Origin: a virus
IMG/VR virus record: IMGVR_UViG_3300025120_000549
Span: 1-23,953 of that record
Length of the DNA stretch: 23,953 bases
Direction: 5' to 3' (one strand)
In this document: one piece after another, positions 421 through 5,149 of the stretch
How the letters are laid out: each line of letters starts with the position of its first letter
Position numbering within the stretch: the first letter of the stretch is position 1
Notes under the pieces: generated by a model
Seen by the model: the letters and a program-made list of their open reading frames with translations, nothing else
Told to the model about the DNA's origin: nothing
Database searches by the model: none
Translations under genes and position numbers: made by a program

Positions 421-431
421 CTTATTAATTT

Positions 432-531
432 TAATTGTGTGAGGAACATCCCTCTACCACCAAATCCCCAATGCAGTTACGCATTGAGGTTAAGGTAGGA
501 TAGGCACAACCCTATCGTTCACACACAATTA
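432..531 (-). ncRNA. Structured RNA element with a four-way junction, class unknown
   Basis: Read on the minus strand, the ends form a 10-bp helix (TAATTGTGTG with CACACAATTA, 522-531 with 432-441). Inside are three hairpins: GATAGG/CCTATC with a 6-nt loop; a long arm CTACC/GGTAG enclosing CCTCAATGC/GCATTGGGG; and GAGG/CCTC. The long arm pairs fully on the minus strand with one U-G wobble, whereas the plus strand has a C-A mismatch, which favours RNA made from the minus strand. It is visibly more GC-rich than its surroundings. It begins at the stop codon of the gene at 529-744, the same placement as the two hammerhead ribozymes in this operon. It does not fit a canonical tRNA: no TTCGA T-loop and no standard D-arm. 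It could be a ribozyme, a riboswitch-like leader or a stability element. Confidence 0.55.
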
Positions 532-744
532 GAATGGTAAAACATCACTTTCTTCCCAACTTTCTATGATGCTTTCTATATCATCTTTCATTTGGATAAT
601 TGATTCACAACTCCTTAATAAATCTTCTAATCCTTCTATTTCTCTATTGCTTAATTCTTGTGTTTCACCATTTTCCAGTGCATCTACACAATCTTTTAAA
701 TCTCTCGCAGTATTTTCAAATCTGCAATAACTCATATTTCCCAT
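529..744 (-). CDS. Small acidic phage protein of the MSYCRF type (71 aa)
   Basis: The protein begins MGNMSYCRFENTARDLKDC and is acidic, ending EESDVLPF. The N-terminal pattern MSYCRF-N-T-x-x-DL-x-DC is one I associate with small phage proteins of unknown function; that is recall, not a search. Two starts are possible. ATG at 744 is preferred because AATAGAGATATG precedes it, the leader seen before the gene starting at 1277; the Met at codon 4 would give exactly MSYCRF. No membrane segment is present. The stop codon is also the first part of the structured RNA at 432-531. The function is not known. Confidence 0.65.
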   Translation of the reverse strand: MGNMSYCRFENTARDLKDCVDALENGETQELSNREIEGLEDLLRSCESIIQMKDDIESIIESWEESDVLPF

Positions 745-762
745 ATCTCTATTTTTTTTAAT

Positions 763-945
763 TTATTTAATTTTATAGTATTCTATTAGCAAAGAATCGT
801 TCTTTACTTGATACTCGTTATACAATTTGTTCATCTCATAATCTATCTTGCTTCTTTGATGTAATTGCTCATCAGATAGTTTATTCATCATCCCACAACT
901 ACTTAATGTGAGAATCGCAGCTCCAACTATTAGGATCTTTTTCAT
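763..945 (-). CDS. Small phage-encoded lipoprotein (60 aa)
   Basis: The protein starts MKKILIVGAAILTLSSC: two lysines, a hydrophobic stretch and a lipobox LSSC with the acceptor Cys at residue 17. Signal peptidase II cleavage would leave a mature lipoprotein of about 44 residues, which is polar and helical (DEQLHQRSKIDYEMNKLYNEY). An in-frame upstream ATG at 1011 would add 22 residues, but those codons lie inside the hammerhead ribozyme at 965-1020 and would place charged residues before the signal peptide, so the start at 945 is chosen. After ribozyme cleavage the leader would be 25 nt. Small phage lipoproteins are often involved in superinfection exclusion or receptor masking; that role is a guess here. 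Confidence 0.7.
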   Translation of the reverse strand: MKKILIVGAAILTLSSCGMMNKLSDEQLHQRSKIDYEMNKLYNEYQVKNDSLLIEYYKIK

Positions 946-964: not shown

Positions 965-1020
965 AATACTGACTGCCCTTCGGCAGTTTCGTTCCATTTC
1001 AGGAAACTCATCAGAGTATT
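965..1020 (-). ncRNA. Type I hammerhead self-cleaving ribozyme (copy 1)
   Basis: On the minus strand the 56 nt read, in order: stem I 5' strand AATACT; core CTGATGA; stem II GTTTC/GGAAC with a 7-nt loop; core GAA; stem III ACTGCC/GGCAGT closed by GAAG; cleavage nucleotide C; stem I 3' strand AGTATT. Every conserved hammerhead core position is present (C3-A9, G10.1-C11.1, G12-A14, A15.1-U16.1, C17). The open ends lie in stem I, hence type I. The predicted cut is between 971 and 970, leaving a 25-nt 5'-OH leader before the lipoprotein ATG. The ribozyme overlaps the last base of the stop codon of the 85-aa gene. A second copy at 1820-1875 differs by compensatory changes in stems II and III. Confidence 0.92.
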
Positions 1021-1277
1021 TATATATGATGTGTTATCTCATCTAAAGATACAAGACCACTATGCTTAAGTCTCACCTCTATTTCCTTTGACAATACCTT
1101 TAATCTTCTAAATTCCTCTTGTAAGATAGATAATGCTATAATACAATGCTCAATCTTCTCTTCATCATCCCATAGCATAACCCCTTTTTGAATTTTTATA
1201 TTTTCAAGAGTAGTTTCTAATCGTTTTTGTATTGCTTTAATTGTGCAATCAACTAATAATTCTTCTTTTCTTTTCAT
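1020..1277 (-). CDS. Hypothetical coiled-coil protein (85 aa)
   Basis: An 85-residue protein beginning MKRKEELLVDCTIKAIQKRL. It is rich in Leu, Glu, Lys and Ile with heptad-like spacing over most of its length (ETTLENIKIQ, ALSILQEEFRRLKVLSKEIEVRL), which suggests a helical, possibly coiled-coil protein. It has no membrane segment or catalytic motif. The start is supported by the AATAGAGATATG leader. It begins 4 bp after the end of the 170-aa gene and its stop codon touches hammerhead ribozyme copy 1. The function is unknown. Confidence 0.6.
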   Translation of the reverse strand: MKRKEELLVDCTIKAIQKRLETTLENIKIQKGVMLWDDEEKIEHCIIALSILQEEFRRLKVLSKEIEVRLKHSGLVSLDEITHHI

Positions 1278-1281
1278 ATCT

Positions 1282-1794
1282 CTATTTATTTATGTGATTA
1301 ATTAATGTATTTAGGTAGTATGCAGTATCGCCACTATAATTACCATTAGTAGCAGAGAAATAATCTAATGCATCTTGTAGAATGTCTCTTTTTTTCGCTT
1401 GTTGTAATTCATTATGCATAGAATCTAATTGGTCTTTCATTCTCCAAATCTTACTCTTTAACTCGGCATTCTCTTTCCATAACTCATCATTTCTCCTATC
1501 TAATATATCATAGTGTTTCAACTTTCTTTCCATTCTCGCAACCTTATTGTATGCGTTAGGATTCGTAATATACTCCTTGCCTTTTTTAGTAATCTTAAAG
1601 ACATTTTTAGTGTTATTGTCTACCAATCCACCATACTTCCATTCTACTATGTTAGTCCCATAGTAACCTTGTCTGTTGACATAATCTTTAATGTCATTAC
1701 CTTGTGCAACCCATATAAACTTCTGCACATCTTGTCTGCTACATTGCTTTCTTTTAGCAATTTGTGATAGCACTTCTAACTTAATTGAATTCAT
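1282..1794 (-). CDS. Winged-helix-like N-terminus plus coiled coil, possible regulator (170 aa)
   Basis: Residues 1-80 look like a winged-helix fold: a first helix (IKLEVLSQIAKRKQ), a possible recognition region (SRQDVQKFIW), then a wing-like stretch VFKITKKGKEYI. The FKIT-KKGKEYI pattern is typical of the wing in small DNA-binding proteins. Residues 85-140 form a charged coiled coil (ARMERKLKHYDIL, ENAELKSKIWRMKDQLDSM), and the C-terminus is polar. A DNA-binding dimer with a coiled-coil dimerisation arm is a reasonable inference; the target is unknown. The gene follows hammerhead ribozyme copy 2, whose cleavage would leave a 31-nt leader, and is followed by the 85-aa gene after 4 bp. Confidence 0.6.
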   Translation of the reverse strand: MNSIKLEVLSQIAKRKQCSRQDVQKFIWVAQGNDIKDYVNRQGYYGTNIVEWKYGGLVDNNTKNVFKITKKGKEYITNPNAYNKVARMERKLKHYDILDRRNDELWKENAELKSKIWRMKDQLDSMHNELQQAKKRDILQDALDYFSATNGNYSGDTAYYLNTLINHINK

Positions 1795-1819
1795 AATTTC
1801 TAATTGTTTTTGTGTGTTA

Positions 1820-1875
1820 TATACTGACTACCTTTCGGTAGTTTCGCCAAAATCTCATTGGCTCATCAGAGTATT
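1820..1875 (-). ncRNA. Type I hammerhead self-cleaving ribozyme (copy 2)
   Basis: The minus strand gives stem I AATACT/AGTATA (5 bp plus one mismatch), core CTGATGA, stem II GCCAA/TTGGC with loop TGAGATT, core GAA, stem III ACTACC/GGTAGT with a GAAA tetraloop, and cleavage nucleotide C. The predicted cut is between 1826 and 1825. Compared with copy 1, stem III changes a G-C pair to A-T and stem II changes both sides while keeping pairing. The core and the sequence AGTC at the cut are unchanged. It overlaps the last base of the stop codon of the 89-aa gene, exactly as copy 1 does for its upstream gene, and precedes the 170-aa gene. Confidence 0.92.
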
Positions 1876-2144
1876 TATGATGGATTATATCCATTTGGTA
1901 ACACATCATCCCAAGTCAAACAAGCATCCTCTACCCATTTTTCACCATCCCAAGACATATGTGTTTCGTTAAACTCCATATATTGTTCTATACTATGGTA
2001 TTCGCATTTAGCAGATACGATACTATCTAATACTTCTTTTCTTCTACCATTGATATTACATACTAATCTCATCTCTGATTCAGTAGCAATCTCATACTCA
2101 AGTATGGTATCCCACGCTTGATTAAAATCTAATTCTTTGTTCAT
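1875..2144 (-). CDS. Hypothetical protein, first gene of the minus-strand operon (89 aa)
   Basis: An acidic soluble protein beginning MNKELDFNQAWDTILEYEIA and ending in a Trp-rich segment (MSWDGEKWVEDACLTWDDVLP). Two Cys are present, but no motif that I can assign to a family. It is the gene nearest the promoter at 2174-2202, with ATG about 30 nt downstream of the -7 box. Its stop codon is shared by one base with hammerhead ribozyme copy 2. Its position first in a phage early operon suggests an early takeover or regulatory role, but nothing in the protein shows it. Confidence 0.6.
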   Translation of the reverse strand: MNKELDFNQAWDTILEYEIATESEMRLVCNINGRRKEVLDSIVSAKCEYHSIEQYMEFNETHMSWDGEKWVEDACLTWDDVLPNGYNPS

Positions 2145-2162
2145 TGTATGTATATGTATTGA

Positions 2163-2196
2163 TTAATTATTGACAAAGATAGTTTAATTATTGACA
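2163..2196. repeat. Direct repeat TTAATTATTGACA, copies 21 bp apart
   Basis: The 13-mer TTAATTATTGACA occurs at 2163-2175 and again at 2184-2196. The 21-bp spacing equals two turns of B-DNA, so both copies face the same side. The second copy lies between the -33 and -7 boxes of the minus-strand promoter and the first overlaps the -7 box. This is the usual arrangement of an operator bound by a dimeric or cooperative repressor. Confidence 0.55.
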
Positions 2197-2202
2197 TAAC
2201 AA
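2174..2202 (-). promoter_or_regulatory. Promoter of the minus-strand operon
   Basis: On the minus strand a TTG at 2202-2200 is followed after 18 nt by TATCTTTG at 2181-2174. This matches the Bacteroidota primary sigma promoter (-33 TTG, -7 TAnnTTTG). Transcription would start near 2168, about 25 nt before the ATG at 2144. Confidence 0.75.
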
Positions 2203-3157: not shown

Positions 3158-3184
3158 TTGTTATATATTTTTTTATTATATTTG
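3158..3184 (+). promoter_or_regulatory. groEL promoter
   Basis: TTG at 3158-3160 is followed after 16 bp by TATATTTG at 3177-3184, matching the Bacteroidota -33/-7 pattern. The groEL ATG is 30 bp further on. The nearest upstream heptamer copy abuts the -33 box. Confidence 0.6.
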
Positions 3185-3214
3185 CCCCAACAATTAATTA
3201 AATCAAATTTACTT

Positions 3215-4822
3215 ATGACAGAACAGGGATACATCTCCAAAGACCTTTGCTTTGATGACGAGGGAAGACAAAAATTAATCAAGGGAATAACTGTAATATC
3301 TAAAGCAGTTAAGTCAACACTGGGCCCAAGGGGCAAGACAGTAATTATAGAATCCGTAAACCATACTCATGGAATCACAGTAACTAAAGACGGTGTCACC
3401 GTTGCTAAGTCTGTAGATTTATTTGATCCTGTAGAGAACCTTGCGGTTAGGATGATGAAGGAGGCTGCTAATAAAACAGCATCTATAGCGGGAGATGGAA
3501 CAACTACAGCTATTGTATTAACGGAAGCCATTGTAAAAGCGGGTATAGAGTTAATGAATAATTACGATGTTAATTCAACTGAAGTAGTTAGATTATTAAA
3601 AGAGAAAGTTGAGGGGATAATTAAGGAACTTAATAAGAAGGCTCGTAAAGTAACAGGTAAGAGATTACTTGATGTTGCCACTATCTCTGCTAATAATGAT
3701 AAGGCTTTAGGGAAACTAATCTCGGATACATATGAAGAGGTTGGGCTCGATGGTATTGTTACTGTAGAGAAATCACAAAACTCTGAGACCTATGCAGACA
3801 TTACTAATGGAATAAAAGTAGACAGAGGCTACTCATCTCCTTTATTTATTAATAATCAAAAGAAAGATGAGTGTATATTAGAAGATGTACATATTTTAGT
3901 TTGCGATACTGAAATAAATAATATACTTCAAATTGAGAATATATTAAAAGAGATTATTAATAAAGGGCATAAACTTTTAATTATTGGGGAGTGTAGTCAG
4001 AATATGATAAACACCTTAGCAGCTAATGTTGTAAAGAATGGTTTAAAGTTCTGTAATGTCCCACCTCCAAGTTTTGGATATAGACAACACGAGTTAATGC
4101 AAGATATAGCTTTAGCAGTAGGAGCAACTTACTTTTCTGAAAAGACTGGTGACGATCTTAGCTTAATACTTCCTAAAGATTTAGGTCATGCTCAAAAAAT
4201 TGTTGTAGGCAAAGACAATTCTATTATCATTACAGGTAAATCAATGAGTGAAGAACTTGTAGAGCGAGTGTCTGAACTTAAAGTACAACAAGATAATACT
4301 AAAAATAAAGGAGAAAGAGATTTTATAAATACTCGTATTGCTTCTTTAGCAGGAGGAATCGGATGTATCTATGTAGGAGGCGACTCAGATATAGAACAAA
4401 AAGAAAAATTCGACAGAGTCGATGACTCTGTCTGTGCAGTGCGTTCCGCACTACAGGAAGGAATACTACCTGGAGGTGGATTAACTCTATGGAGATTAGC
4501 TCCCGAAAGAATAAAGGTAGATTCTAAAGATGAGATTACTGAAGAGATGGTGGCAGATGGAATACTTCATGTAGCCCTTAAAGCTCCTCTTATGCAAATA
4601 TTAGAGAACGCAGGTTTAGATTTTGAAACAATAATGAACAAGCAAGACCTAATAGATGACTTTAATGGATTTGATGTTAAGAATGAAAAGTATGGTGACA
4701 TGTTTAAGATGGGAGTTATAGATCCACTTAAGGTTACTAAGAACGCTTTAATTAACGCAAGTAGTGTTGCTACAACAATCTTAAGCACTAACGCTATCAT
4801 AACACACGCAAGAGCATGTTAA
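3215..4822 (+). CDS. groEL: Phage-encoded chaperonin GroEL (Hsp60), 535 aa
   Basis: A full-length group I chaperonin that would form an ATP-driven folding chamber. Equatorial ATP-site motifs are intact: LGPRGK (36-41), TKDGVTV with D59 (E. coli D52), AGDGTTTA (92-99, D94 for D87), RVDD with D404 (E. coli D398) and PGGG near 419-422. The apical part keeps DRGY-SSP-LF at the GroES-binding face, with Leu and Ser replacing two residues of the E. coli DRGYLSPYF. The protein stops at THARAC, so the flexible Gly-Met C-terminal tail of cellular GroEL is missing. The start MTEQGY is chosen because an upstream in-frame codon at 3158 lies within the promoter. Both groEL and groES are present, suggesting a phage-specific folding machine for virion proteins. 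The divergence from cellular sequences suggests an old viral lineage. Confidence 0.96.
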   Translation: MTEQGYISKDLCFDDEGRQKLIKGITVISKAVKSTLGPRGKTVIIESVNHTHGITVTKDGVTVAKSVDLFDPVENLAVRMMKEAANKTASIAGDGTTTAIVLTEAIVKAGIELMNNYDVNSTEVVRLLKEKVEGIIKELNKKARKVTGKRLLDVATISANNDKALGKLISDTYEEVGLDGIVTVEKSQNSETYADITNGIKVDRGYSSPLFINNQKKDECILEDVHILVCDTEINNILQIENILKEIINKGHKLLIIGECSQNMINTLAANVVKNGLKFCNVPPPSFGYRQHELMQDIALAVGATYFSEKTGDDLSLILPKDLGHAQKIVVGKDNSIIITGKSMSEELVERVSELKVQQDNTKNKGERDFINTRIASLAGGIGCIYVGGDSDIEQKEKFDRVDDSVCAVRSALQEGILPGGGLTLWRLAPERIKVDSKDEITEEMVADGILHVALKAPLMQILENAGLDFETIMNKQDLIDDFNGFDVKNEKYGDMFKMGVIDPLKVTKNALINASSVATTILSTNAIITHARAC

Positions 4823-4923
4823 AGTGGTTAAAGAGTTTATTCAGTTTTGATGATGCAAACAAGAAGTTATTAGATAATATAAAAAAATTAGATGAAGCCA
4901 ATAGGAAAGTACATAATAATTAA
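4816..4923 (+). CDS. Tiny ORF between groEL and groES (35 aa)
   Basis: ATG at 4816 overlaps the last seven bases of groEL, and the TAA at 4921-4923 falls 32 bases into groES. The peptide begins MLKWLKSLFSFDDANKKLLD and is basic and amphipathic, with aromatic residues near the N-terminus and a charged helix after. The tight overlap on both sides suggests translational coupling of groEL to groES through this ORF. It may be a real peptide or only a coupling device; no homologue is known to me. Confidence 0.45.
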   Translation: MLKWLKSLFSFDDANKKLLDNIKKLDEANRKVHNN

Positions 4924-5149
4924 ACCGATAGAGGAAGAATTAAAAACCGCATCGGGATTATTATTATCTCAAGAAGATGCATCAGGGTTTAGATATAAGA
5001 AAGGCAAAGTAGTAAAGCCTGGAACTGATGTAGAAAATATATCTGACAATGATTTAATCTATTATGACAAGTCAGCAGGTCACCAGATGTTTATAAAAGA
5101 CGAAGTCTTTATGGTTATTCTGGAGAGAGATGTCGTTGTTGTCTTATAA
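4892..5149 (+). CDS. groES: Co-chaperonin GroES (Hsp10), 85 aa
   Basis: A short GroES that would cap the GroEL chamber as a heptamer. The first strand (GKYIIIKPIEEE) is followed by the mobile loop KTASGLLLSQEDAS, where GLLL stands for the hydrophobic tripeptide (IVL in E. coli) that docks on GroEL. Then come KGKVVKPG, DNDLIYYDKSAG and a final strand VFMVILERDVVVVL, in the order of the GroES beta-barrel. It is about 12 residues shorter than the 97-aa E. coli protein, mainly in the roof loop. It lies 69 bp after groEL with a small ORF between and overlaps the convergent winged-helix gene by 35 bp at the 3' ends. Partner choice (phage or host GroEL) cannot be judged from sequence. Confidence 0.92.
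   Translation: MKPIGKYIIIKPIEEELKTASGLLLSQEDASGFRYKKGKVVKPGTDVENISDNDLIYYDKSAGHQMFIKDEVFMVILERDVVVVL

Follow-up and report, generated by a model that had tools for sequence, protein, structure and literature searches.

A complete type I hammerhead ribozyme lies on the minus strand between two genes of a Bacteroidota phage, and a second complete copy precedes it in the same operon. Processing between cistrons had been proposed for the first of these in a preliminary description of this DNA and is, on sequence comparison, still the best reading, given the second copy in the operon and the recurrence of the same layout before 47 unrelated viral gene families. Self-cleaving type I hammerheads of this kind probably act as intercistronic processing cassettes in polycistronic phage RNA. 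The window referred to below is the whole stretch of viral DNA analysed, 23,953 nucleotides (IMG/VR record IMGVR_UViG_3300025120_000549, positions 1 to 23,953).

Two hammerhead ribozymes in one phage operon

Ribozyme 1 reads, on the minus strand from 1020 to 965, AAUACU CUGAUGA GUUUCCUGAAAUGGAAC GAA ACUGCCGAAGGGCAGUC^AGUAUU, where ^ is the predicted cut. Every core position of a type I hammerhead was filled in a motif scan, with C17 at position 971, and the three helices consisted of 6 bp (helix I), 5 bp including one U.G (helix II), and 6 bp including A15.1-U16.1, with a GAAG loop (helix III). The complete type I element that had been claimed for minus-strand positions 965-1020 was thus found with its core and all three helices, and the earlier coordinates, the cut between 971 and 970, the contact with the upstream stop codon, and the 19 nt to the lipoprotein ATG proved correct. 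The TAA stop codon of upstream gene 1 (1022-1020) overlaps the first helix I base, and the lipoprotein ATG (945-943) is located 19 nt beyond position 965 and 25 nt beyond the predicted cut, which would leave a 2',3'-cyclic phosphate on 971 and a 5'-OH on 970. Ribozyme 2, overlooked in the preliminary description, is a second complete copy between genes 2144..1875 and 1794..1282 (Table 1).

Both window copies show CUGANGA, GAA, A15.1-U16.1, and H17 at a three-way junction, and the strict motif rule returned no complete copies beyond these two over the whole window. As controls, 300 first-order Markov windows of equal composition contained 1 match in total, and six scrambled cores gave 0 matches in 454 kb of related DNA versus 52 for the real core. 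A chance origin of ribozymes 1 and 2 is excluded. Folding indicated that helices II and III of the element are stable hairpins. With energies that leave out tertiary contacts, RNAfold favoured an alternative hairpin over helix I in ribozyme 1 (-16.8 versus -12.8 kcal/mol) and placed ribozyme 2 near balance (-14.3 versus -14.0 kcal/mol).

A predicted promoter of the Bacteroidota type, at minus 2202-2174, precedes both ribozymes; the operon, taken for an early one in the preliminary description, is early only putatively. Comparison of the window genes flanking the ribozymes with Pfam and PHROG assigned no function, and the family of upstream gene 2 was found before a hammerhead in 7 phages. The portal and capsid proteins placed the window phage with podoviruses of Bacteroidota, at 65-69% identity to MW202828 and 27-52% to Flavobacterium elemo, Maribacter, Cellulophaga, and Tenacibaculum phages. 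No ribozyme copy was found with covariance model R1 in MW202828, the nearest named relative. The window also encodes GroEL (an ORF of 554 aa) and a GroES-like protein (85 aa) at 3158-5149, and the same pair is present in MW202828.

A separate, unrelated structured RNA is located in the same operon at 425-536, directly before the ATG at 420-418 and between a stop codon and that ATG; its 3' part, GGUGGUAGAGGGAUGUUCCUC, is near-invariant. Homologs (Table 1) occur in phages that also bear these hammerheads. It had no match in Rfam, and its alignment, of 6 sequences only, contained 3 pairs with double changes. It may be a further element for processing, or may represent an unknown RNA class.

Table 1. 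Features of the ribozyme-bearing operon in the window, with related loci elsewhere.
Feature	Position	Strand	Basis and remarks
Bacteroidota-type promoter match, TTG-N18-TATCTTTG, ahead of operon	2174..2202	-	pattern scan, prediction only
Upstream gene 2, 89 aa	1875..2144	-	ORF; stop codon 1877-1875 abuts ribozyme 2
Hammerhead ribozyme 2 (type I)	1821..1874	-	motif scan; model R1 63.1 bits; predicted cut 1826/1825
Predicted 31-nt leader, cut 2 to ATG of gene 1794..1282	1795..1825	-	
Downstream gene 2, 170 aa	1282..1794	-	ORF; relative behind same ribozyme in L040
Upstream gene 1, 85 aa	1020..1277	-	ORF; without family match
Hammerhead ribozyme 1 (type I, open helix I)	965..1020	-	motif scan; model R1 61.5 bits; relatives covary
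Ribozyme 1, helix I	1020-1015/970-965	-	
Ribozyme 1, core CUGAUGA	1014-1008	-	
Ribozyme 1, helix II	1007-991	-	
Ribozyme 1, GAA	990-988	-	
Ribozyme 1, helix III	987-972	-	
Ribozyme 1, C17	971	-	
Predicted cleavage site 1	970..971	-	position after H17 of core
Predicted 25-nt 5' leader after cut 1, AGUAUUAACAAACACAUACAGACAA	946..970	-	sequence; spacing kept in relatives
Downstream gene 1, small lipoprotein, 60 aa, lipobox ..TLSSC	763..945	-	ORF; weak PHROG 17010 match
Separate structured RNA	425..536	-	fold z -5.2
Homologs of the structured RNA	L019:8318-8427, L029:8081-8183, L040:1593-1701, L037:1405-1469, L012:13027-13073, L219:2603-2629		
Hammerhead copy of phage elemoA	L149:3042-3106 = NC_055853 16041-16105	-	
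Chromosomal hammerhead copies	L125, L126, L131, L132, L135, L136, L138, L139, L143, L144, L146, L147, L161-L171, L174-L179		

Viral relatives and covariation

A pattern scan of IMG/VR yielded 40 loci, and a second viral scan, for which helix I was given another sequence, yielded 46 stretches, mostly new, in which the geometry was unchanged; whole records were searched with model R1. The unpaired core CUGANGA..GAA..UH was invariant among 38 distinct aligned viral copies, a count of intact copies that is partly fixed by construction, since the scans demanded the core and its pairing. Standard pairs made up 98.8% of the pair cells in this alignment versus 26-44% when the partners were slid as a control, and both sides had changed in 13 of the 16 pairs, with all three helices represented. 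Within 85 non-redundant viral copies, helix I was 6 bp long in 75, with an A immediately 5' of it in 82 and immediately 3' of it in 76; these flanking residues, together with UNAAU-like loops, would suit a tertiary contact between loop II and helix I. Loop II of ribozymes 1 and 2, UGARAU, resembles that of viroid hammerheads. No type II permutations were found in the viral and phage loci examined. Two type III hammerheads (closed helix I) were observed, both on the minus strand of L030, which also has two type I copies.

Under Rfam 15, ribozyme 1 scored 21.0 bits with Hammerhead_3 (RF00008; gathering threshold 48.5), and ribozyme 2 scored 26.2 bits with RAGATH-1-hammerhead (RF03152; gathering threshold 56.3), for which no match to ribozyme 1 was listed. 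The best RF00008 scores over the tested copies were 21-26 bits and the RF03152 scores of relatives 23.7-32.6 bits, all below gathering; the other hammerhead families of the RF00008 clan had no matches listed for the tested copies, and none passed in a gathering-level scan of 13 loci. A below-threshold covariance score had earlier been named as a refutation of the motif. The score is indeed below threshold, but because the 38 relatives covary strongly, it reflects an unmodelled group and not a poor motif. This type I group thus falls outside the Rfam models. The low scores and the stability of helices II and III would also be compatible with a hammerhead look-alike that has no activity, a structural hairpin serving as terminator or stability element; given the invariance of the unpaired core in the aligned relatives and the consistent failure to find scrambled cores, we regard this as highly improbable.

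Model R1 found 1-4 copies per phage record, many records having a single copy and one (G012) having four at a spacing of about 500 bp. Fragments released between paired hammerheads carry 5'-OH and 2',3'-cyclic phosphate ends, which are RtcB-type substrates, and could be ligated to circular RNA in the manner of retrozymes. The two window ribozymes, which bracket an 855-nt segment, and the presence of up to four copies per phage would suit such circles. The single copies in many records and in chromosomal genomes argue against circles as the common function, and circles and splicing were both sought in a 2011 study (PMC3088659), and neither was found. Circle formation is therefore very unlikely to be what these elements are for.

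Among cultured phages, the Flavobacterium elemo phages, represented by 68 records in the collection, have a copy between two small genes, and in elemoA the predicted cut would be 28 nt ahead of the downstream gene (gp67 in NC_055853). Helix II is intact in elemoA (GGUU/AACC) versus broken in elemoF (GACU/AACC), and elemoA and elemoF/D (L218) form a natural pair of variants. An antisense open frame (gp66) is annotated across the elemo ribozyme. No copy was found with model R1 in Panino, phi38:1, phi13:2, or Calle_1, and a 22-bit match in Tenacibaculum phage Gundel_1, inside coding sequence, was taken as chance.

Fixed spacing between stop codon, ribozyme and start codon

The distance from the upstream stop codon to the start of helix I had a median of 0 nt in the 85 non-redundant viral copies and was at most 12 nt in 73 of 82, and that from the cut to the next ATG had a median of 26 nt and fell between 20 and 37 nt in 80 of 83. 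The genes flanking 87 non-redundant viral copies belonged to 40 upstream and 47 downstream families. When each downstream family was given one value, the ATG was 20-37 nt after the cut in 46 of 47, and in the lone exception (L029) another ATG in the same frame is present at 27 nt. Since the geometry is kept across 40 upstream and 47 downstream families, the spacing was not inherited from one gene pair. Intergenic gaps had a median of 85 nt with a ribozyme versus 9 nt for other same-strand gaps of the same loci. As judged from these sequences, the element is a standard cassette that takes up the gap between stop codon and leader.

What follows the same upstream gene and ribozyme can differ from phage to phage (families U1, U3, and U8), as might be expected if the elements were joints of recombination or hitch-hiked in the exchange of gene cassettes, with cleavage incidental. 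Such an origin would leave unexplained the covariation that preserves all helices as sequences diverge, the fixed ATG spacing in 47 families, and the long-term retention in a chromosomal operon described below, and we consider it unlikely. In eight loci (L005, L009, L011, L019, L021, L024, L027, and L037) the downstream product starts with AGUAUC-AUAA-GAUACC, a potential 5'-terminal hairpin, which might capture the helix I strand after cleavage and so trap the product.

A chromosomal copy in marine Flavobacteriales

The same pattern, run over about 85,000 species genomes, matched a single locus in twelve assemblies of marine Flavobacteriales, between a gene for a TonB-dependent receptor (Plug domain) and a gene whose product, a small lipoprotein, has the motifs CxxCH, FC, and HC as well as a His/Asp tail. 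Within one family of 52 genomes, 21 had a strong match to the lipoprotein, and in all 21 model R1 found the ribozyme immediately upstream; an order-wide sample of Flavobacteriales added more copies at the same receptor/lipoprotein locus. The cut-to-ATG spacing was 22-27 nt in 25 of 26 chromosomal copies, and these copies covary, with both sides changed in 10 of 16 pairs. On the receptor tree, two changes suffice to account for ribozyme presence. Three more distant homologous operons (L206, L210, and L209) had no ribozyme, the receptor and lipoprotein genes being 6 nt apart or overlapping, and another (L214) had a 59-nt gap and no ribozyme.

In one R1 search of chromosomal genomes, each had exactly one copy, and circle formation by paired ribozymes is therefore not the role of the chromosomal copy. 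In G084 there is a second chromosomal copy, degenerate in appearance. For pattern matches outside Flavobacteriales (Actinobacillus, Haladaptatus, Vibrio, etc.), R1 gave no support save for one marginal match.

Discussion

The cassette has the order stop codon, ribozyme, cut, A-rich leader of about 26 nt, and ATG. When it has been made and ribosomes have left it, presumably while transcription continues, the RNA would fold and then cut itself. The upstream mRNA would retain the ribozyme body, ending in helix III and a 2',3'-cyclic phosphate, and this 3' end may thereby be protected, and the downstream mRNA would begin with a 5'-OH, followed by a leader that is short and unstructured. Shine-Dalgarno sites are little used in Bacteroidota, and a leader of this kind would suit initiation there and may affect translation. 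In the window, the two predicted cuts would convert one transcript to three units, namely gene 2144..1875, genes 1794..1282 and 1277..1020, and the lipoprotein gene 945..763 onward. While a ribosome terminates at the stop codon, the 5' strand of helix I would lie beneath it, and cleavage may therefore await release of that ribosome.

This overlap with the stop codon, through which ribosomes could gate folding, would also fit a regulated switch, an aptazyme or metal-responsive ribozyme in place of a constitutive cutter, as would the chromosomal operon that codes for a TonB receptor and a Cys/His-rich lipoprotein. We saw no added conserved aptamer domain, however, and loops II and III are short; the 40 nt upstream, compared with shuffles, gave fold z values of +0.3 for chromosomal and a slight -0.7 for viral copies. 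A dedicated switch is accordingly quite unlikely, and constitutive processing remains the preferred reading. By the same z values, a conserved upstream hairpin of the RAGATH-1 type, which lies within the last part of the coding region upstream, was rejected as a general feature.

Perreault et al. (2011; PMC3088659) described type I hammerheads between phage and prophage genes, proposed the processing of long transcripts, and observed cleavage of comparable tandem phage hammerheads in vitro and in E. coli. The concept of phage hammerheads as transcript processors is thus already known. Those ribozymes share with the present ones the core, an open helix I, an intergenic location, and several copies per region, whereas their flanking genes are reported as non-constant and no fixed geometry is given in the text consulted, in contrast to the standard spacing found here over 47 families. 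The present group, unlike that system, lies outside the Rfam 15 gathering thresholds. RAGATH-1-hammerhead is likewise an open-ended type I, and its model spans the full ribozyme 2 including the upstream hairpin, but scores are 24-33 bits versus 56.3 and the real helix II here is 4-5 bp. Hammerhead_3 describes type III, with helix III open and helix I closed, whereas here helix I is open and of about 6 bp. The preliminary description had called an RNA-cutting element between phage cistrons unusual; such elements had already been reported (PMC3088659), and what appears new is the fixed geometry. To judge from the open-access literature, three things appear to be new, namely the uniformity of the geometry, the existence of a group that Rfam misses, and the operon on the chromosome.

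The role of hammerheads in bacteria and phages has been described as an open question (PMC6155905). The fixed spacing across dozens of unrelated genes makes that role directly testable, and it is likewise opened to test by the chromosomal operon (ribozyme in 21 of 21 versus a 6-nt gap in distant homologs) and by cultured phages with intact and broken natural versions. We lean towards the view that the cassette is a general expression device of marine phages and their hosts, vertically inherited in the TonB-receptor/CxxCH-lipoprotein operon, where self-cleavage would set separate mRNA fates. If true, a hammerhead ribozyme would have a conserved role in bacterial cells. The recurrence of the cassette in dozens of marine phages and in a chromosomal operon of marine flavobacteria points to a tool of general use, by which long messages would be divided into messages for single genes.
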